DNA of 64,000 bases, from positions 1,612,001-1,676,000 of the forward strand of contig NZ_CP014754.1 in NCBI RefSeq assembly GCF_001447155.2, written 5' to 3'. The DNA comes from Marinobacter sp. LQ44 (lineage in GTDB: Bacteria; Pseudomonadota; Gammaproteobacteria; Pseudomonadales; Oleiphilaceae). Shown in pieces: positions 53,034 through 61,624 of the stretch; positions within the stretch are counted from its first letter, which is position 1, and every line of letters begins with the position of its first letter. The notes under the pieces were generated by a model. That model was not told the origin of the DNA. It did no database searches and saw nothing but the letters and a program-made list of their open reading frames with translations. The translations under genes and the position numbers were made by a program.

Positions 53034-53187
53034 AACGGCGTCCGTCGGCCCTCTGTCGTGATCACCAGCTTGTCACCAATTGATACAATTACCCTCACCT
53101 GCCCGTGCTGGGAAAACTGCTACTATAAAGACAGGTTATCGTTTGGCGCTCCAACTCGGGAGCATTTTTGTCTGTAAGGATGCATGC

Positions 53188-54075
53188 ATGTCCAGCAAAG
53201 CGAAGCAGTCCCAGAAACTCCTGCTGTTCCGCCTTTTCGGATCGCGCCTTTTTGGTCTGGGTACGCTCAAGATTCGGGAAATCCTGCCCTTTCAACGGCT
53301 GACCAAGTTGCCCCATAGTCATCACGCCGTCATTGGCACCGCTACGTTCCGGGGGTCGGCGGTTCCGGTTATTGATATGTCGGCTGCGGTTGGTTATCCG
53401 GCACTGACAAAAGAGGAGCAGGCCAAGGGCTCCATTATCGTGACCGACATTCAGCGCCAGGAGATCGGCTTTCTGGTGCGCAGCGTTCAGCAGATTATCG
53501 AGACCGACTGGAAAAGCGTGATGCCGCCACCCAAGGCTCTGGGTACCAATGCCTTCATCACGGGCCTGCTGGATGTGGAAGGCGACATCATTCAGCTTTT
53601 GGATGTGGAGCTGCTGCTGGCGAAGGTGTACCCAGAGTCCCTGGACACCGGCGATGTGGCGCTGTCAGACATTCAGAGCGAAACCCTGCGGTCCCTGAAC
53701 ATTCTGCTGGTGGATGATTCACAGGTCGCGCGCAAGCAGCTCAGCGATGTGTTGGACAGCAAAGACATCACCTACCATGTGACCGCTAATGGTGACGATG
53801 CCCTGCAGGTGCTGCTCAGTCAGGATGAGCGAGGTACTCCAATCGACATTCTGGTCAGCGATATCGAAATGCCGGGGCTGGATGGCTATGAACTGACGTT
53901 CAATGTTCGCGACAATAACGCCCTCAAACAGCCATACATTATTTTGCACACGTCCCTGAACAGCGAGATGAGCCTGAGCTACGCCAATCAGGTGGGTGCC
54001 AACGAAGCACTCACCAAGTTTGACGCCGAGGAGTTATTGCAGGCGATGCTCAGAGGAGCTGAGCAAGCCAGTTAA
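53188..54075 (+). CDS. cheV: Chemotaxis coupling protein CheV
   Basis: A CheW-like domain (~10-160) that links receptors to CheA, fused to a response-regulator receiver with phospho-acceptor Asp225 (DILVSDIEMPG), DDS and Lys in LTKFDAEEL. Length is 295. ATG 53188 has AAGGA eight bases upstream; a longer frame has no such site. It stands apart from other chemotaxis genes, as cheV often does. Its end overlaps the convergent lipoprotein gene by four bases. Confidence 0.93.
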   Translation: MSSKAKQSQKLLLFRLFGSRLFGLGTLKIREILPFQRLTKLPHSHHAVIGTATFRGSAVPVIDMSAAVGYPALTKEEQAKGSIIVTDIQRQEIGFLVRSVQQIIETDWKSVMPPPKALGTNAFITGLLDVEGDIIQLLDVELLLAKVYPESLDTGDVALSDIQSETLRSLNILLVDDSQVARKQLSDVLDSKDITYHVTANGDDALQVLLSQDERGTPIDILVSDIEMPGLDGYELTFNVRDNNALKQPYIILHTSLNSEMSLSYANQVGANEALTKFDAEELLQAMLRGAEQAS

Positions 54076-54935
54076 GGCCGAATGTCTTCGATGAAGGCTT
54101 CGGCATCGGCCCGCATTTCCGCGAGTTTTTCGTTCAGCTCTTCCTGATATCGGTTGAGTGTTTCCCGGCTGAGCCGGCTGAAGCGCTCAGCGGTTTCCGC
54201 AACAGTGCGGCTGGCGTTGGCCAGGGCCTCCATGGTGGGCTCGCTCAATTCGTCTGCCTGGCGCCTGAGGTCCCGCGCGGTCTGCTCCATGATGGCGCGG
54301 TCTTCGGCGGGTTCAGGTTGACCATCTTCCAGTGCCTCGTCCAGCGAATGCTCAAGGGCGCGCATGGACTCCTGCAACCGCCGGGCGAAATCCTCCATCG
54401 CGCTCTCAGCCCTTCGGCTCATCTCGTCAGAGTAGGTTTCCAGGTCTCTGGCCAACTGCTCCATCTTCTCTTCAAGCTCGCTGCTTGACGAAGAGAAGGT
54501 CGCACTGAGCCTCTGCCCCAGCCGGCTCAGCTCACCCATGATGTTACTGAATGGGGACGGGTTCAGTATGGCCTCCCCTGTGCGCTGGTAATCGACAAGC
54601 CACTGGTCCTGCTGCCGCACCAGATAGGTGGTCAGCTCAAGACGTTCTCCGCCGGAGCGCTCCTCCGCCGGCAGGCGGGTAACGATGGTTGCTTCACGCT
54701 CATCGATAACAACCCTGCCAAAGGAGGGAACGGCATTGGCCCAGCTTCGCTGGTAGCCGTCAACGTCGCGGGGGTCGTCCAGGGTGGAGAATCTCACCAC
54801 GTCACCTGCGTCGTTATCAGCCATGGCCTGCCAAAAGGCCGCTGCCACTTCCTGAGGTGTTTCAGGTTTGCTGCAGCCGATTATCGCCAACGCAACGAAC
54901 ACCATTAATAACCCACGAACACCAAGACGAATCAT
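54072..54935 (-). CDS. Coiled-coil lipoprotein of unknown function
   Basis: A 287-residue predicted lipoprotein (lipobox IIGC, Cys21). Residues ~25-120 look like a small alpha+beta domain of the DUF4878/NTF2-like sort (TPQEVAAAFWQAMADNDAGDVVRFS, LTTYLVRQQDQWLVDY); the rest is a long amphipathic helix region rich in Glu/Arg/Leu heptads, likely coiled coil. It follows the ThDP enzyme by 44 bases and is probably its operon partner, though a separate role is possible. Confidence 0.75.
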   Translation of the reverse strand: MIRLGVRGLLMVFVALAIIGCSKPETPQEVAAAFWQAMADNDAGDVVRFSTLDDPRDVDGYQRSWANAVPSFGRVVIDEREATIVTRLPAEERSGGERLELTTYLVRQQDQWLVDYQRTGEAILNPSPFSNIMGELSRLGQRLSATFSSSSSELEEKMEQLARDLETYSDEMSRRAESAMEDFARRLQESMRALEHSLDEALEDGQPEPAEDRAIMEQTARDLRRQADELSEPTMEALANASRTVAETAERFSRLSRETLNRYQEELNEKLAEMRADAEAFIEDIRP

Positions 54936-54979
54936 TCATCAGTACCTTGTATACAATACTTTCTCGCATCATACCCACG

Positions 54980-56650
54980 TCAGAGTCGACAGGTCAGTTC
55001 CGCCAGCTCCTCATCAAACACTCGCCGATTTTCGCTGTAATCCACCGGCACATCCACCAGGTGGACACCGCCCTCGGCCAGCGCACTTTTCAAGGTAGAG
55101 CGTAGGTCCTCTGTCCGGGTTATGCGGTGTCCTTTGGCGCCGTACGACTGGGCATAGGTGACAAAGTCCGGATTGCGGTAATCCAGACCATAATCGGCAT
55201 AGCCTTCCTGGCCCTGCTTCCACTTGATCATGCCATAGGCACTGTCATTGATAATCAGCACCACCAGGTTCAGTTTGAGGCGGACAGCAGTCTCCAGCTC
55301 CTGGCTGTTCATCATGAAGCCACCGTCCCCACAGATGGCCATCACTTTCAGGTGCGGGTACAGCATAGCGGCCATCATGCCGCTGGGCAGGCCGGCCCCC
55401 ATGGATGCCAGGGCGTTGTCCAACAGCACAGTGTTGTTATCGTAGGCCGGGTAGTTGCGGGCAAACCACAGTTTGTACATGCCGTTATCGAGGGTGATGA
55501 TGCCGTCGTCGGGCATCACCTGGCGCACATCGTGGACGATCCGCTGAGGAATCACCGGGAACCGGTCATCTTCCGCCCGCTCCTGCAAATGCGCATCCAC
55601 GGCCTTTTTGACCTCCATCAGGCCGGAGAAGTCATGGTTCGCGCACTGGCCACAGTGCTCGGCCAGATACTCGACGCTGTTAGCGATATCACCGACCACT
55701 TCATGCTGGGGAAAGTAAACCGGATCAACATCCGCGCCACTGAAATTCACGTGGATAACTTTCTTGCCACCCGGGGTCATGAAAAATGGCGGTTTTTCCA
55801 CCACATCGTGGCCCACATTGATCACCAGGTCAGCCCGGTCTATCGCGCAGTGCACAAAGTCACCGGCCGACAGCGCCGCGTTGCCCAGGTATCCGGGGTG
55901 ACGTTCGTCGACCACACCCTTGCCCATTTGGGTGGTGAAAAAGGGAATACCGGTTACGTTCACCAGGTGCAGCAAGGCCTGGGACACCCGTTTCCGGTTG
56001 GCGCCAGCGCCGATCATGATCAGTGGATGCCTGGCCTCGCGCAGCATATCGCAGGCCATTTCCAGGCTCTTCCGGCTGGCTGAGGGCCGGCGGGCGTCAC
56101 TGGGCTGGAAAATGTGGGTGTCGCGGGCCGGTTGCTCCGCGGCGATGTCCTCGGGCAACTCGAGATGAACCGCTCCCGGGCGCTCTTCCGAGGCCAAACG
56201 AAAGGCCTCCCGAACTTTCGCCGGAATGGTATTGGCATTGCTGATTTGCCGGGTGTATTTGGTCAGGGGACGCATCAAGTCCACCACGTCCAGAATCTGG
56301 AACAGGCCCTGTTTCGAGGATTTGATCGGCTTCTGCCCGGAGATCATCATCATCGGCATGCCACCCAGCTGGGCGTATGCAGCAGCGGTCACAAGGTTTG
56401 TGGCGCCAGGGCCAAGTGTGGACAGACAAACGCCCACCTGGCCAGTGAGTCGCCCATAGGTGGCCGCCATAAAGCCCGCAGCTTGCTCATGGCGGTTGAG
56501 CACCAGTTCGATGCTGGAGTTCCTGAGGGCATCCAGAAAGGCCAGATTTTCTTCACCGGGTACAGCAAAAATGTACTTAACGCCCTCGTTTTCCAAAGCG
56601 CGGATGAACAATTCGGCACCGTTACCACCCGTTCGTTGCTCTTCAGCCAT
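54980..56650 (-). CDS. Acetolactate-synthase-like ThDP enzyme
   Basis: A thiamine diphosphate-dependent enzyme of 556 residues. Activating Glu55 is in LNRHEQAAGF, and the ThDP/Mg motif begins GDGG with Asp442 and continues to an ND-type ending (VVLIINDSAYG). It resembles catabolic acetolactate synthases, which condense two pyruvates, and lacks a regulatory subunit gene nearby (no ilvH), so a biosynthetic ilvB role is unlikely. Other 2-oxo acid substrates are possible. It is the third gene of a minus-strand run with an ATP-grasp protein and a Cys-hydrolase-like protein, 30 bases after the latter. Confidence 0.85.
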   Translation of the reverse strand: MAEEQRTGGNGAELFIRALENEGVKYIFAVPGEENLAFLDALRNSSIELVLNRHEQAAGFMAATYGRLTGQVGVCLSTLGPGATNLVTAAAYAQLGGMPMMMISGQKPIKSSKQGLFQILDVVDLMRPLTKYTRQISNANTIPAKVREAFRLASEERPGAVHLELPEDIAAEQPARDTHIFQPSDARRPSASRKSLEMACDMLREARHPLIMIGAGANRKRVSQALLHLVNVTGIPFFTTQMGKGVVDERHPGYLGNAALSAGDFVHCAIDRADLVINVGHDVVEKPPFFMTPGGKKVIHVNFSGADVDPVYFPQHEVVGDIANSVEYLAEHCGQCANHDFSGLMEVKKAVDAHLQERAEDDRFPVIPQRIVHDVRQVMPDDGIITLDNGMYKLWFARNYPAYDNNTVLLDNALASMGAGLPSGMMAAMLYPHLKVMAICGDGGFMMNSQELETAVRLKLNLVVLIINDSAYGMIKWKQGQEGYADYGLDYRNPDFVTYAQSYGAKGHRITRTEDLRSTLKSALAEGGVHLVDVPVDYSENRRVFDEELAELTCRL

Positions 56651-56680
56651 GCTCGCCCTCGTGGTCCGTGAGTTTCTGGA

Positions 56681-58705
56681 TCAATCGGTTATCGGTGGTT
56701 CCGCCTGCAGGGTGTCTGCCGGTACCCGGTCTGCCCCCCAGCTGCGGTACACTCCGTCAATTACGCGACCAAGCTCATCATCGTTCACTTCGGCAGGCTC
56801 GCCGCGCTCCAGCGGATCATAATGGAAGATGTACAAACGCGAAGTGAACTGTTCAAACGGCAGTGAAGATTCACCGAAACGTTCACCGAAGCCAGAGGTA
56901 CTGACCTGCACACCGTCGCCCCAGTTCTGGCCGCTGTCGTTGTTTGGGTTGAAGAAATACACCCGCATCTCACCGTCCGGGTCCAGGGCGACCCGGAGAA
57001 CGGTAATCGCATGCCAGCCAATGAAGCGGGCAGCACTGTCGGTAACCGCGATACCGGCCGGCTGCGGGTGTATCAGTGGCTGGTTGCCGTTGTAATACGG
57101 GTGGTAGCTGGCATAGAAGTGGCGGATAAAGCCTTCCAGGTCGGTCAGGTTGCCGGTGGCCACGTCCACATTGATGGCAAACCCTCTGCCGGCGGACCAG
57201 CCATGAAACTCGGGGTTGACCCATTTGTGTGGATCGCCCTCGCGGTCGGCACACAGCCGACCCATTTCAGCGTAGATCCGGTCCAGATGCGGCACCACAA
57301 TCAGGGAGACAGGATCGAGGTCTAAGGTCACTTCTGCGGCCAGTCCGCCGGCACTGCGTGCCGAAGACACTGGGCGCCCCTCGAAATGCATGACAATTTC
57401 ATCGTCTCGGGCGGCCCAGGTAACCATTTGCAGAAGGTAATCAGGATCGTTGTAGGCCCACATAGACAAGGCCCGGGCAGACTGACAGGTAGGGTTATTA
57501 CCCTGTCCTACCCCCATCGGCTGGCCCAGCATGTTCAATACGCCCTGAATCAGCCAGGCTAAAGGGTTGGGCTGATAGCCGTAAGCAAACTGCAAACGCT
57601 CAATCGCTCGCGGGCACAGCGTCAGACGCACCTGGCGCCATAATGCCGGTGCCACCGGGGGCTGATAGAGTATCCCCCGCTCAAGCAACAAGGCCAGGCC
57701 ATAGAGGCCCTGGGCAGTTTCTGGGAACAGGGATTCCTGGATCAGCGTGTGCACCAGATCCCGGTAACACAACAGACAGTCGCGCCCCGTACTGGACAGC
57801 CCCAACGCCTCGCTCAGCAGGGAATCCTTGCCCTCCAGAACATGGCGGATAAAAACGGCGTGGTAGGGAGAAACCAATCCCGTATCGTGCATTGAACGGG
57901 CAAACCCGGTCGCTTCGTTCTGCAAGGCAGCTCCATCCATGGAATCCAGACGCTGCTGGTAGATCGCAATGCCTGGGTCTTCGCCACAGGCCCGCGTTGG
58001 CCCGTACAAGCTGGAAATCAGTCGGTCTGCCCCTCGGCCGGCCGTACCGAGATCAACCGTCGGATCGGCCCGGCAAATGGCAATCTGGGTAATCATCCTT
58101 CGCACATCACTGACACGGATCGGCCGCTGCTCCAGTATGCGCCAGATTTCCTCAATCAGGCTGTCGATCACGTGCTCGTAACCGATGTGCCGGGCCACAT
58201 ACTGGACCAGTTCCTGTGCAATGATCGCCAGTTTGCCTTGCTCTCGCTCGGCTTCGCCGGTCATGCCGAACAGCAACCCCAGGTTAATGGCCAGCACCTG
58301 GGTCAGGTAATGATGCGCCTGCTCAGCTGACACGCTGGGGTGTTGGTATTCGCCGCGCGCCACAGCCAACAGGCGCAGCTCACTCAGCGCCTCGATCACC
58401 ACGGTATCGGCGTTCGGACTTTGCAAGGAGTAGACGGTCAGGGAGGGCAGGAGAATGGATGGGTCGGCCCAATCGGTGCCCACAAAAACACCTGCCTCTT
58501 CCAATGATCGGGCACGAGCTCCGATTTCCTCACAACCACCGGGCTGGAGCAAGATTCGTCGGGCAAGATCAAACACTTTCGGGAGCTTGCCGGCCTTTGC
58601 AAAGGGCCGGCTCTCCGCCAGAGCTACAATGGATTCATCCAGTTTGTGCACCAGCTTGTCAATACTGACCGTTGGCGCCTGGCCGGCCGGTTGGTGATCG
58701 CTCAA
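56681..58705 (-). CDS. Uncharacterised protein with papain-like Cys/His/Asn arrangement
   Basis: I do not recognise this 674-residue soluble protein. The N-terminal ~380 residues are mostly helical. The C-terminal half has GQGNNPTCQSARALS (Cys407), FIGWHAITVLRV (His565) and YFFNPNNDSGQNWGDG (Asn586). This order, and a hydrophobic strand after the His leading to FxNP, resemble a papain-like or C39-like catalytic triad. That reading is inference. No signal peptide or span. It starts at TTG 58705 with TGAGGA nine bases upstream. It lies between an ATP-grasp ligase and a ThDP enzyme gene, with 52 and 30 bases between. Confidence 0.7.
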   Translation of the reverse strand: MSDHQPAGQAPTVSIDKLVHKLDESIVALAESRPFAKAGKLPKVFDLARRILLQPGGCEEIGARARSLEEAGVFVGTDWADPSILLPSLTVYSLQSPNADTVVIEALSELRLLAVARGEYQHPSVSAEQAHHYLTQVLAINLGLLFGMTGEAEREQGKLAIIAQELVQYVARHIGYEHVIDSLIEEIWRILEQRPIRVSDVRRMITQIAICRADPTVDLGTAGRGADRLISSLYGPTRACGEDPGIAIYQQRLDSMDGAALQNEATGFARSMHDTGLVSPYHAVFIRHVLEGKDSLLSEALGLSSTGRDCLLCYRDLVHTLIQESLFPETAQGLYGLALLLERGILYQPPVAPALWRQVRLTLCPRAIERLQFAYGYQPNPLAWLIQGVLNMLGQPMGVGQGNNPTCQSARALSMWAYNDPDYLLQMVTWAARDDEIVMHFEGRPVSSARSAGGLAAEVTLDLDPVSLIVVPHLDRIYAEMGRLCADREGDPHKWVNPEFHGWSAGRGFAINVDVATGNLTDLEGFIRHFYASYHPYYNGNQPLIHPQPAGIAVTDSAARFIGWHAITVLRVALDPDGEMRVYFFNPNNDSGQNWGDGVQVSTSGFGERFGESSLPFEQFTSRLYIFHYDPLERGEPAEVNDDELGRVIDGVYRSWGADRVPADTLQAEPPITD

Positions 58706-58757
58706 ACGAGTTTCCTCAGGGCCTGCATCAAACCCTTTCTGTTAATGCATACCTGGA

Positions 58758-59990
58758 TTATACATAGAAATCGAGCTCTTCCTGATGTTTGAGAAGATCC
58801 CGAAGAACATAGGGATCCTCCCCGAAGAAATACACCAAGCCCCAATGAGTACCAAACGCTGTCCTCTTGGTTACGGTTTCCTCCACTGGCGGCGTCAGTT
58901 CATGGGATTCAAAGTAATCGTGGTTTTCGGTCTCTTCCGGGATCTCCAGACGACTGACCACACGACGGCGCGGGTACACCCCAAAACAGCCGGCATAGCC
59001 CTTGGCGTCTACCACCTCTTTCGGGAAGAAAGACTTGATTTCCTCTTCGGTGGTTTTCGGATCAAACGCCAGGATCAGGCCCTGATAGGCATTGAAGCCG
59101 TAAGCACGCTCAAGCAACTCAAACACCTTGAAGCCCGGCGGACGATACGCTACCTCACCGAAATACATGGTGCCGTCGCTGGTGACAAAATACTCGGGAT
59201 GAACAAAGCCGAAATCGATATCAAAGGTTTTGATCAGCTTCTCAATTTCCGAGGTGATCTGTGCCCGGTATTTTTCCAAGTCCGGAGTGGCCGGAACGAA
59301 GACGGAATAACCGAGGGTGACGTATTCGGAAATATTGAGGAAACAGATCTTGCCATTATGGATCCAGGCCTCCACCGCAAACTCCCAGCCGTCCAGGTGG
59401 GATTCCATTAACACCGGAAATTCTTCATCAGGAATCGTGTCCACTTCATCCGGTGTGCGGATAACCCGATGGCCCAGGCAGCCGGCCTTGTCGAAGGCCT
59501 TGAGGTGGATCGGGTCGTTGGGATCGCCGTCCAGTTTCAGAAGGGTCTGGTTGACTCGTTTCAGGAAACGGACCACATCCTCCCGATCGTGGGCCTCCTC
59601 AAAGATACCAACACGAATGCCACCAAGCTGGGCCCGACGTTTCATCAGGGCCTTGTCGCGCAGCAGCATGGCCTGCCCGAAGAGCCGAGGATTCGCCATC
59701 AATACCGAGTTGATAGCACCGGCCCATTCTACCGTTTCCTCAAACAGGGGGATGGCAACATCCACCCCCATGTCTTTGAGCGTCTGGGCGATCTCAAACG
59801 AGCGATCGTTGAGGCGTTCGAAGTTCCAGGGGACATACGGAATATTGTGTTCCGTGCAATAGGCTTCTGCCCAATCCGGCGCCACCACCACGTAGCGGCG
59901 ATCGAATTTGTCGGCCGCTTCCACAGCATTCAGGCTCCAGCCAAGCAAGGCAACGTACCCTTTGTCGGGATTGTAGTTCTGTTCAGTCAC
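58758..59990 (-). CDS. ATP-grasp superfamily ligase
   Basis: Predicted to activate a carboxylate with ATP and join it to an amine or thiol. The 410 residues have a preATP-grasp N-terminal part, a lysine-containing strand LMESHLDGWEFAVEAWI, and the Mg site GEVAYRPPG, comparable to the ExNxRPGG of biotin carboxylase-type enzymes. GTG 59990 has GAGGAG seven bases upstream. It is the first gene of a four-gene minus-strand run and has its own leader. The substrate is unknown; neighbours do not identify a pathway. Confidence 0.8.
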   Translation of the reverse strand: MTEQNYNPDKGYVALLGWSLNAVEAADKFDRRYVVVAPDWAEAYCTEHNIPYVPWNFERLNDRSFEIAQTLKDMGVDVAIPLFEETVEWAGAINSVLMANPRLFGQAMLLRDKALMKRRAQLGGIRVGIFEEAHDREDVVRFLKRVNQTLLKLDGDPNDPIHLKAFDKAGCLGHRVIRTPDEVDTIPDEEFPVLMESHLDGWEFAVEAWIHNGKICFLNISEYVTLGYSVFVPATPDLEKYRAQITSEIEKLIKTFDIDFGFVHPEYFVTSDGTMYFGEVAYRPPGFKVFELLERAYGFNAYQGLILAFDPKTTEEEIKSFFPKEVVDAKGYAGCFGVYPRRRVVSRLEIPEETENHDYFESHELTPPVEETVTKRTAFGTHWGLVYFFGEDPYVLRDLLKHQEELDFYV

Positions 59991-60142: not shown

Positions 60143-61624
60143 TCAGCCCAGTTTCAGGGTAGACAGGGTTCGCTCCCGTACCCGATTGAGCAGTTGCTCG
60201 TCGTTCACCAGAGATTGTCCGTAGGAGGGGACCAGTTCCTTCATTCGTTCCAGCCACTGCTGCGACTTCATGTTCTCCGGGAAACACCGCTCAAGTACAT
60301 TCAGCATGGCGTTGGCCGCTGTTGATGCACCAGGGGAAGCACCCAGCAGTGCCGCCAGCGTGCCATCTTTGGCAGCCACAATCTCAGTACCGAACTCAAG
60401 CTTGCCTCCGCCTTCCGGGGTTTGCTTGATGATTTGCACCCGCTGGCCCGCCATCTGCAGCCGCCAGTCTTCTTCGCGGGCATCCGGGAAGAAGTTACGC
60501 AGCGACTCTACCCGGTCGGTGTGAGACTGGAACACTTCACCAATCAGATAACGGGTCAGATCCATGTTGCTCTTGCTGACCGACAGCATTGGCCGCAGGT
60601 TAGTGGCGCGCACAGAACCGAACAGGTCAAACACCGAGCCCTGCTTCAGGAAACGGGTGGTAAAGCCTGCAAAGGGCCCGAACAGCAGTGCCGGCTCGCC
60701 GTTAATGATTCGGGTGTCCAGATGTGGCACCGACATAGGCGGTGCACCGATCGGCGCCTTGCCGTATACCTTGGAGTTGTGCGCTTGCACGATATCCGGC
60801 TTCTGGCACACCAGCCACTGACCACTCACCGGGAAGCCGCCGTAACCGCGCGCTTCATCAATGCCGGATTTTTGTAACAGCGGCAGGGCACCGCCACCGG
60901 CCCCCAGGAACACGAAACCGGCCTCCAGCTTGGTCAGCTCACCGGTTTTCTGGTTCTTCACCCGCAGCTTCCAGCGGCCATTGTCCCGCTGGTCGATGTA
61001 ATGCACCGGGCTGCTGAGCATCAACTCAAAGTTGGGCTGGGTTTCCAGCCACGCGACCATGCTACGGGTCAGGGAACCGAAATCCACATCAGAGCCATGC
61101 TTGATGCGGGTTGCAGCCACACGTTGCATCGGGTCGCGATGTTTGACCACCAGCGGCATCCACTCGGCCAGGTCGTTCGGGCTCTCGGTGTATTCCATCT
61201 CCCGGAACAGGTGATGGGCTTTCAGGCGCTCGAACCGGCGCTTGAGGAAAGCGACGTCTTTCTCACCCCAGACAAAGCTCTGGTGTGGCGTGCGGTTAAT
61301 AAACGTAGAAGGCTCTGGCAGAATGCCCTGCTCTACCAGGTACGACCAGAACTGCAGCGACACCTCAAACTGCGCATTGATTTGCAGAGCTCTGGCAATT
61401 TCAACGTCGCCATCGTCGGTTTCGGGGGTGTAGTTGAGTTCACAGTAGCCGGCGTGGCCGGTACCTGCGTTATTCCATCCGTCTGTGCTTTCATGGGCAA
61501 CGTGGTCTAAACGCTCCACCATGACGATATCCAGTGACGGGTCCAGCTGCCTGAGCATCATGCCGAGGGTTGCGCTCATGACGCCCCCACCGACCAGCAC
61601 TACGTCTGCCTGTCTAACGGCCAT
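60143..61624 (-). CDS. mqo: Malate:quinone oxidoreductase
   Basis: FAD-dependent, membrane-associated oxidation of malate to oxaloacetate, passing electrons to quinone. It has 493 residues with dinucleotide loop VGGGVMSATLG and the family sequence STDGWNNAGTGHAGYCELNYTPE. ATG 61624 has AGGG nine bases upstream. Single gene, with its own terminator. Confidence 0.95.
   Translation of the reverse strand: MAVRQADVVLVGGGVMSATLGMMLRQLDPSLDIVMVERLDHVAHESTDGWNNAGTGHAGYCELNYTPETDDGDVEIARALQINAQFEVSLQFWSYLVEQGILPEPSTFINRTPHQSFVWGEKDVAFLKRRFERLKAHHLFREMEYTESPNDLAEWMPLVVKHRDPMQRVAATRIKHGSDVDFGSLTRSMVAWLETQPNFELMLSSPVHYIDQRDNGRWKLRVKNQKTGELTKLEAGFVFLGAGGGALPLLQKSGIDEARGYGGFPVSGQWLVCQKPDIVQAHNSKVYGKAPIGAPPMSVPHLDTRIINGEPALLFGPFAGFTTRFLKQGSVFDLFGSVRATNLRPMLSVSKSNMDLTRYLIGEVFQSHTDRVESLRNFFPDAREEDWRLQMAGQRVQIIKQTPEGGGKLEFGTEIVAAKDGTLAALLGASPGASTAANAMLNVLERCFPENMKSQQWLERMKELVPSYGQSLVNDEQLLNRVRERTLSTLKLG

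Follow-up and report, generated by a model that had tools for sequence, protein, structure and literature searches.

A conserved gene pair of a probable ATP-grasp ligase and a putative thiol enzyme, with a possible role in osmoadaptation

Described amide systems and the GRASP-C674 pair

Glutathionylspermidine synthetase/amidase combines an ATP-grasp part with an amidase in a single polypeptide, and an ATP-grasp domain is also contained in Ngg, an enzyme of the osmolyte N-acetylglutaminylglutamine amide (NAGGN). The amidase of the former is papain-like and of the CHAP type (PMC10318531). Ngg acetylates one glutamine and makes the peptide bond, and it is encoded in the trio asnO-ngg-glutamyl aminopeptidase (PA3459-PA3461; PMC8070244). 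The enzymes of two neutral amide osmolytes were described as unexplored in a 2005 review (PMC1224877), and NAGGN, one of the two, has since been assigned (PMC8070244). Further points of comparison are the L-amino-acid ligases, which are ATP-grasp dipeptide synthetases (BL00235, PDB 3vot; 4wd3), and the bacterial HDAC-like deacylases (PF00850), for which a classification exists (PMC11532494). Here we analyse a 64,000-nucleotide stretch of the genome of Marinobacter sp. LQ44 (contig NZ_CP014754.1, positions 1,612,001 to 1,676,000), called the window below, in which a gene for a probable ATP-grasp carboxylate-amine ligase, GRASP, precedes a gene for a 674-residue protein, C674.

The pair looks like a ligase plus hydrolase amide module of the general kind seen in the NAGGN and glutathionylspermidine systems, and judged by sequence it is a member of neither. 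The likeness to the NAGGN trio lies in a ligase with a neighbouring hydrolase and a link to osmotic stress, but the proteins are different ones. Among 18 pair-positive genomes none passed the cut-off of the Ngg family TIGR03103, as against 13 of 58 pair-negative ones. This sample excludes the window genome and its nearest relatives and takes as negatives the first listed genomes of the same order (20) and the same class (38). GRASP also gave no Ngg-type match in NCBIfam. The likeness to glutathionylspermidine synthetase/amidase is one of working, with a putative amide ligase and thiol amidase that would act on one product; however, that enzyme is one polypeptide and here there are two genes, C674 has no CHAP match, and the Pfam matches of GRASP members do not include the glutathionylspermidine-synthetase family. 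No literature on the pair was found in a search that left most subscription papers outside, so an earlier mention is possible.

C674 and GRASP occur in the same genomes. Among 38 relatives of the strain, C674 is present in 24 and a strong GRASP match in the identical 24. The same holds for genomes sampled from the class (C674 in 13 of 369, GRASP in the identical 13) and from the phylum (11 of 398, GRASP in the identical 11), at thresholds of E 1e-20 for GRASP and E 0.001 for C674. The three samples overlap and comprise 42 distinct pair-positive genomes in total; an ATP-grasp match in G027 (22 bits, 29%) was left out of the GRASP count. A large and highly conserved family for which we found no model is thus always carried with one kind of ATP-grasp protein in the sampled genomes.

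The two genes are also neighbours. An alignment search with C674 gave 553 loci encoding a relative, and in the best 80 of these GRASP adjoins C674 in 74, always upstream and on the same strand, with 15-261 bases between the matches. Beside C674, GRASP is absent in L104, L109, L111, L130, L131 and L142; L106 has it split in frame, and in L143 the end of the contig truncates it. In a separate set of 40 loci, 18 of which were picked because their C674 paralogues are 51-57% identical, 21 have GRASP, which lies upstream of C674, downstream of it, divergent or convergent. Because the pairing is kept despite changed orientation, it points to function and not to inherited order alone, and GRASP and C674 almost certainly form one functional unit. 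Of the four closely spaced genes in the window, only these two make up the conserved unit.

Two genomes, G004 and G015, retain GRASP only as short decayed pieces upstream of C674 (loci L083 and L082, respectively). Both have a second GRASP copy elsewhere in the genome, 75-77% identical.

Predicted chemistry of C674 and GRASP

ATP-grasp ligases are a known kind of enzyme, as are the HDAC-like amidohydrolases treated below; C674 is a family without a model in the libraries used. The first-pass annotation of the window, made from the letters alone, had called C674 an unknown protein; neither the single sequence nor a profile gave a significant match in Pfam, NCBIfam or the PDB. A profile of the C-terminal region (residues 384-642, 20 of 41 sequences) matched no papain-like family in Pfam or the PDB. 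We count both results among the points against the function proposed below. A homologue search matched 2751 of 8000 scored candidates, and the closest homologues with species names belong to M. excellens, M. alkaliphilus, M. shengliensis and M. nauticus.

Conservation in C674 is highest from about residue 406 to 630. We aligned 360 C674 proteins (the 120 best of each of three homologue searches, window protein included), and Gln401, Cys407 and His565 are identical throughout, while Asn586 is replaced once, by Asp. Cys407, His565 and Asn586 had been singled out in the first-pass annotation as a plausible triad; they are found at the positions named, with a conservation far from chance. Gln401 lies six residues ahead of Cys407, the same spacing as between Gln19 and Cys25 of papain. 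A papain-like enzyme is expected to show the order Gln-Cys-His-Asn, the six-residue spacing from Gln to Cys, and exchange of Asn for Asp. C674 has the Gln-Cys-His-Asn/Asp order of clan CA enzymes (Q-x5-C ... H ... N/D, with one Asn-to-Asp swap in 360), but no sequence match to any clan CA family in Pfam or the PDB. The third residue of papain-like enzymes can be Asn, Gln, Asp or Glu (PMC10318531). Further columns of the domain are invariant as well (His473, His493, His501, Asp464 and Asp475), so the triad assignment is not unique and invariance alone is no proof of it. With this pattern C674 is likely to be a thiol enzyme.

Other origins and roles were considered for the pair. One distant homologue bears the source name 'Zorya protein ZorC EH domain', which we dropped as the protein has no Pfam match. 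A role in anti-phage defence was rejected for GRASP and C674, since neither they nor the thiamine diphosphate (ThDP) enzyme encoded downstream matched a PADLOC model of such defence; the coiled-coil lipoprotein that follows gave 21 weak PADLOC matches, mostly of ZorA type. A phage or plasmid origin was also set aside, with no phage matches and a single Halomonas plasmid record that holds the pair. This record, a 1.8-Mb plasmid of Halomonas sp. PA16-9 (NZ_CP040452.1), has the pair at 1212722-1215975, where the gene table used lists no gene.

The ATP-grasp assignment of GRASP, also made in the first pass, seems right though remote. The window protein scores 23.6 bits against PF13535, below the curated cut-off of 27, and all 22 GRASP orthologues match that family at E 0.1 or better. 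A 22-sequence profile gave weak matches (E 0.00016 to 0.0032) to three PDB chains named as ATP-grasp-type enzymes, 4dim, 3vot and 4wd3. Two of these are the L-amino-acid ligases mentioned above (3vot, E 0.0013; 4wd3, E 0.0032); the match covers about 115 positions of the ATP-grasp half, and GRASP is a possible member of that group. GRASP conserves the H-x-E ... E-V-x-x-R-x-x-G pattern of BL00235: its residues Glu266, Glu279 and Arg283, invariant in 22 sequences, align with HTE and EVGARIGG of that enzyme. We take Glu266 and Glu279 to be acidic metal ligands and Arg283 the catalytic arginine. We know of no C674-like partner for L-amino-acid ligases. It is fairly likely that GRASP is a small-molecule amide ligase.

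An ATP-grasp enzyme together with a Cys peptidase is also a known combination in the synthesis of ribosomally synthesized and post-translationally modified peptides (RiPPs). In a graspetide-like system GRASP would crosslink a precursor peptide and C674 would be the leader peptidase, and PqqD-type matches do occur in 4 of 41 C674 proteins. These matches are not significant (best E 0.008), and GRASP in 21 other loci is 75-98% identical to the window protein, a conservation above that expected of RiPP enzymes. No precursor turned up, small open reading frames (ORFs) not having been searched. We regard a RiPP-type system as scarcely probable.

Our favoured reading is a make-and-break amide pair of salt-adapted bacteria, consisting of an ADP-forming ligase and a thiol amidase or acyltransferase, a reading that we hold tentatively, at a little under even chances. 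GRASP would use ATP to activate a carboxylate as an acyl phosphate and join it to an amine, forming ADP as L-amino-acid ligases do. With Cys407, His565 and Asn586, C674 would convert the same kind of amide into an acyl-thioester, which would then be hydrolysed or hand on its acyl group.

HDAC-like partner and a possible link to saline habitats

Most carriers of the pair encode a third protein, an HDAC-like Zn amidohydrolase that might take an N-acyl group off the same compound. It has about 366 residues, is a clear member of PF00850 (302-321 bits in 6 proteins scanned), and belongs with the bacterial HDAC-like deacylases in this respect; it differs from them as a subfamily in which about 45 N-terminal residues precede the PF00850 match, found only in pair-carriers among the genomes tested. 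In 5 of 37 contexts (L069, L073/L191, L075, L118 and L192) its gene is no more than 122 bases from the core genes, and in L188 the distance is 3.1 kb. In a systematic count of recurrent neighbours (43 contexts, ORFs of at least 100 aa) it is the top recurrent neighbour within 1.5 kb, in 5 of 43 contexts. The subfamily was called at 320 bits or more over nearly the full length, the next match being at 229, and this threshold was chosen after the gap had been seen. Among the relatives, 19 of the 24 with the pair encode it and 0 of the 14 without; among further genomes the figures are 15 of 18 and 0 of 58, and both sets combined give 34 of 42 against 0 of 72 (Fisher p about 1e-21).

The best PDB matches of this partner are HDAC6 chains, followed by bacterial HDAC-like amidohydrolases. 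The HDAC6 matches would suit a cycle of protein modification, in which GRASP would attach an amino acid or polyamine to a carboxylate of a protein, C674 would be the thiol protease that removes it, and lysines would be deacetylated by the HDAC-like protein. Cycles of this type employ ATP-grasp ligases and papain-like proteases, and the long N-terminal half of C674 could bind a protein. However, the neighbour count, from which ORFs under 100 aa were excluded, shows no recurrent small tag or substrate protein next to the pair, and the nearest solved relatives of GRASP are annotated as small-molecule enzymes. Protein modification is, in our view, unlikely.

Neighbouring transporters bear on another alternative, in which the amide made and cleaved by GRASP and C674 would be one of a polyamine, as with glutathionylspermidine synthetase/amidase, and the HDAC-like protein would be an acetylpolyamine deacetylase. 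Putrescine-type ABC transporter genes stand beside C674 paralogues (L050 533-4494 and L058 7431-11458); in L050 the names PotF, PotG and PotI are below NCBI equivalog cut-offs, while the ATPase scores above the threshold of TIGR01187, the polyamine subfamily model. Near C674 in L083 there are two genes with below-cut-off matches, one glutamine-synthetase-like and one amino-acid-oxidase-like. On the other side, L050 and L058 are one context without GRASP nearby, the other neighbouring transporters are of sulfate type or of solute-binding families 1 and 3, and ABC transporter genes are common in any case. Polyamine conjugation therefore seems improbable to us.

The amide pair proposed here is found mostly in taxa from marine or saline habitats. 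The 80-locus search found carriers in Marinobacter, Halomonas and relatives, Marinimicrobium, Aidingimonas, Ectothiorhodospiraceae and Oceanimonas, and further ones are Salinisphaera, Spectribacter, Nitrococcus, Pelagibius, Caenispirillum salinarum, Saccharospirillum and Arhodomonas. Ectoine synthase (EctC, PF06339) is encoded by 18 of 18 pair-positive genomes and by 11 of 58 pair-negative ones (9 of the 20 from the same order and 2 of the 38 from the same class) in the sample used for TIGR03103 (Fisher p about 3e-10). In G297 the genes for C674, the HDAC-like protein, GRASP and EctC follow one another in this order on one strand. This EctC (L075 4997-5437) lies about 100 bases after GRASP and is the sole one found in the draft genome. 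Solitary ectC genes are known (PMC5924519).

In 4 of 37 contexts a mechanosensitive-channel gene of MscS type (PF00924) is less than 0.9 kb away from the core genes. The distances are 45 bases in Marinimicrobium, 128 in Ectothiorhodospiraceae and 307 at the second GRASP copy of G009, in each case on the same strand as the GRASP or C674 neighbour. The fourth is the Halomonas-type context, which has an MscK-type gene, at its nearest 839 bases away, in 30 of 37 loci. Nine pair-positive genomes, about 36 Mb in all, contain 44 channel domains; from this background about 0.13 such cases would be expected within 1.5 kb (P for at least 4 about 1e-5) and 0.46 within 6 kb (P 0.0013), values that are uncorrected for post hoc choice and were obtained with channel queries drawn from the same loci. 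One strand of G197 (L070) encodes, in a row, a protein of mechanosensitive-channel type, GRASP, C674 and a betaine-type transporter of the BCCT family; the channel-like protein has PF05552 only and no PF00924 domain, and stands outside the count. Other BCCT genes lie 1.2 kb from C674 (L098) and 2.6 kb (L182) and 4.9 kb (L184) from GRASP. In Halomonas elongata, mscK is down-regulated with rising salinity, and an excretion mutant still loses about 80% of the ectoine by an unknown, channel-free route (PMC7174268).

These associations with salt suggest that the compound could be a small amide- or peptide-like molecule of salt-adapted ('salt-out') bacteria, built and removed as osmolarity shifts. 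That the compound serves osmoadaptation has, in our judgement, just short of an even chance. A bolder proposal is doubtful as a whole: an undescribed osmoadaptation module, in which the ligase and a new family of thiol amidases or acyltransferases, joined in most carriers by the HDAC-like enzyme, would make and recycle a new amide-type compatible solute or osmotic signal, beside ectoine and in the place held by NAGGN in other bacteria.

Besides the missing family matches of C674, a number of observations weigh against the make-and-break reading and its osmotic role. A plain cycle of synthesis and hydrolysis does not explain the unequal copy numbers in some Marinobacter genomes, with several C674 copies per 1-3 GRASP copies. 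The HDAC-like subfamily is absent from the window genome and 7 other pair-positive genomes, and since the window genome does without it, we consider this protein an accessory and no requirement. More distant HDAC-type proteins (E 1e-10) are present in 33 of the 38 genomes of one set and 59 of the 76 of the other, pair-free ones included, and within 6 kb of the pair ABC ATPases recur in 8 contexts, more often than the HDAC-like gene, and the GGDEF/EAL family in 7, as often as it. Some carriers are not obviously halophilic (Rhodococcus, Pseudonocardiaceae, Polyangiaceae, and metagenome-assembled genomes of Dehalococcoidia and Thermoanaerobaculia). Ectoine synthase and the pair may both simply mark saline habitats, and the ectoine-synthase and channel tests were picked after the loci had been seen. 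EctC beside the pair is a feature of one genome only, being found in none of the other 131 loci searched nor in the window. As for the channels, 33 of 37 contexts have no PF00924 gene nearby, and in the Halomonas-type context mscK lies past another gene and on the opposite strand.

If the osmotic reading is true, Halomonas, Marinobacter and their relatives would have an aspect of salt adaptation, so far unexplored, to which genes could be assigned. Industrial ectoine producers are found in this group (PMC5924519). Should the reading prove wrong, two enzyme genes with undescribed chemistry would still make a tractable target.

In G402 the second GRASP copy is flanked by a DUF1538 gene followed by two small ORFs (L182 2523-6665), next to which the BCCT transporter gene lies.

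Locus layout and Marinobacter-only neighbours

In the window, GRASP and C674 head a run of four genes (Table 1). The gaps of 52, 30 and 44 bases reported in the first pass were confirmed from the ORF coordinates, as was the convergent end on cheV, whose end the lipoprotein gene overlaps by 4 bases. The region has 9 terminator-like sites, not above chance (shuffles mean 7.0, standard deviation 2.9), and of the 7 on the minus strand none falls in an intergenic gap, in agreement with the earlier statement that internal terminators are absent. As terminator-like sites are at chance level and none lies in the minus-strand gaps, transcription of the four genes as a single unit is plausible.

Table 1. 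Coordinates of genes and putative catalytic codons at the locus (window numbering)
Feature	Position	Strand	Remarks
GRASP gene (predicted ATP-grasp carboxylate-amine ligase)	58758-59990	-	410 aa, GTG start; core gene 1
C674 gene	56681-58705	-	674 aa, TTG start; conserved C-terminal half; core gene 2
Gln401 codon, putative oxyanion Gln	57503-57505	-	360/360
Cys407 codon, putative nucleophile	57485-57487	-	360/360
His565 codon, putative general base	57011-57013	-	360/360
Asn586 codon, putative third residue	56948-56950	-	359/360 Asn, 1 Asp
ThDP enzyme gene	54980-56650	-	556 aa; NF006187; genus-restricted neighbour, outside conserved unit
Coiled-coil lipoprotein gene	54072-54935	-	287 aa; genus-restricted neighbour, outside conserved unit
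cheV	53080-54075	+	CheW + receiver domain
Malate:quinone oxidoreductase gene	60143-61624	-	152 bases upstream of GRASP

The ThDP enzyme is acetolactate-synthase-like, as had been noted before: it scores 878.4 bits against NCBIfam NF006187, 'acetolactate synthase large subunit' (cut-off 509), and its best PDB match is acetolactate synthase 13bb_A. The first-pass annotation had joined it with GRASP and C674 in a pathway acting on one compound. The tight spacing in the window favours such a pathway, as does the presence of the ThDP gene near C674 in 24 of 37 Marinobacter loci (in L142 at 2.4 kb), but these 24 are the only ones among the 80 loci, with 0 of 43 outside Marinobacter. Of the Marinobacter genomes that carry the pair, G004 (66% at best), G008, G011, G020 and G022 gave no close ThDP orthologue (81% or more), and the orthologue of G006 (81%) lies about 133 kb from the pair. 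The trio is not a conserved unit, because the ThDP gene is local to Marinobacter and has no close orthologue in some pair-carriers; lack of such conservation is an outcome that the first pass had itself named as refuting its proposal. This distribution largely refutes the three-enzyme pathway, which we consider very improbable. The earlier proposal is supported in that GRASP and the Cys/His/Asn protein go together and suit amide chemistry, whereas a pathway of three or four genes is not supported.

The coiled-coil lipoprotein gene is near C674 in 18 of the 80 loci, all of them in Marinobacter, and its product gave only below-cut-off matches in a Pfam scan. All 37 Marinobacter loci have the malate:quinone oxidoreductase gene near C674, against 0 of the 43 other loci, and for this reason it was left out of the unit. 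A second malate:quinone-oxidoreductase-like gene, 40% identical, lies divergent beside the GRASP copy of G022 (L187 8676-10130).

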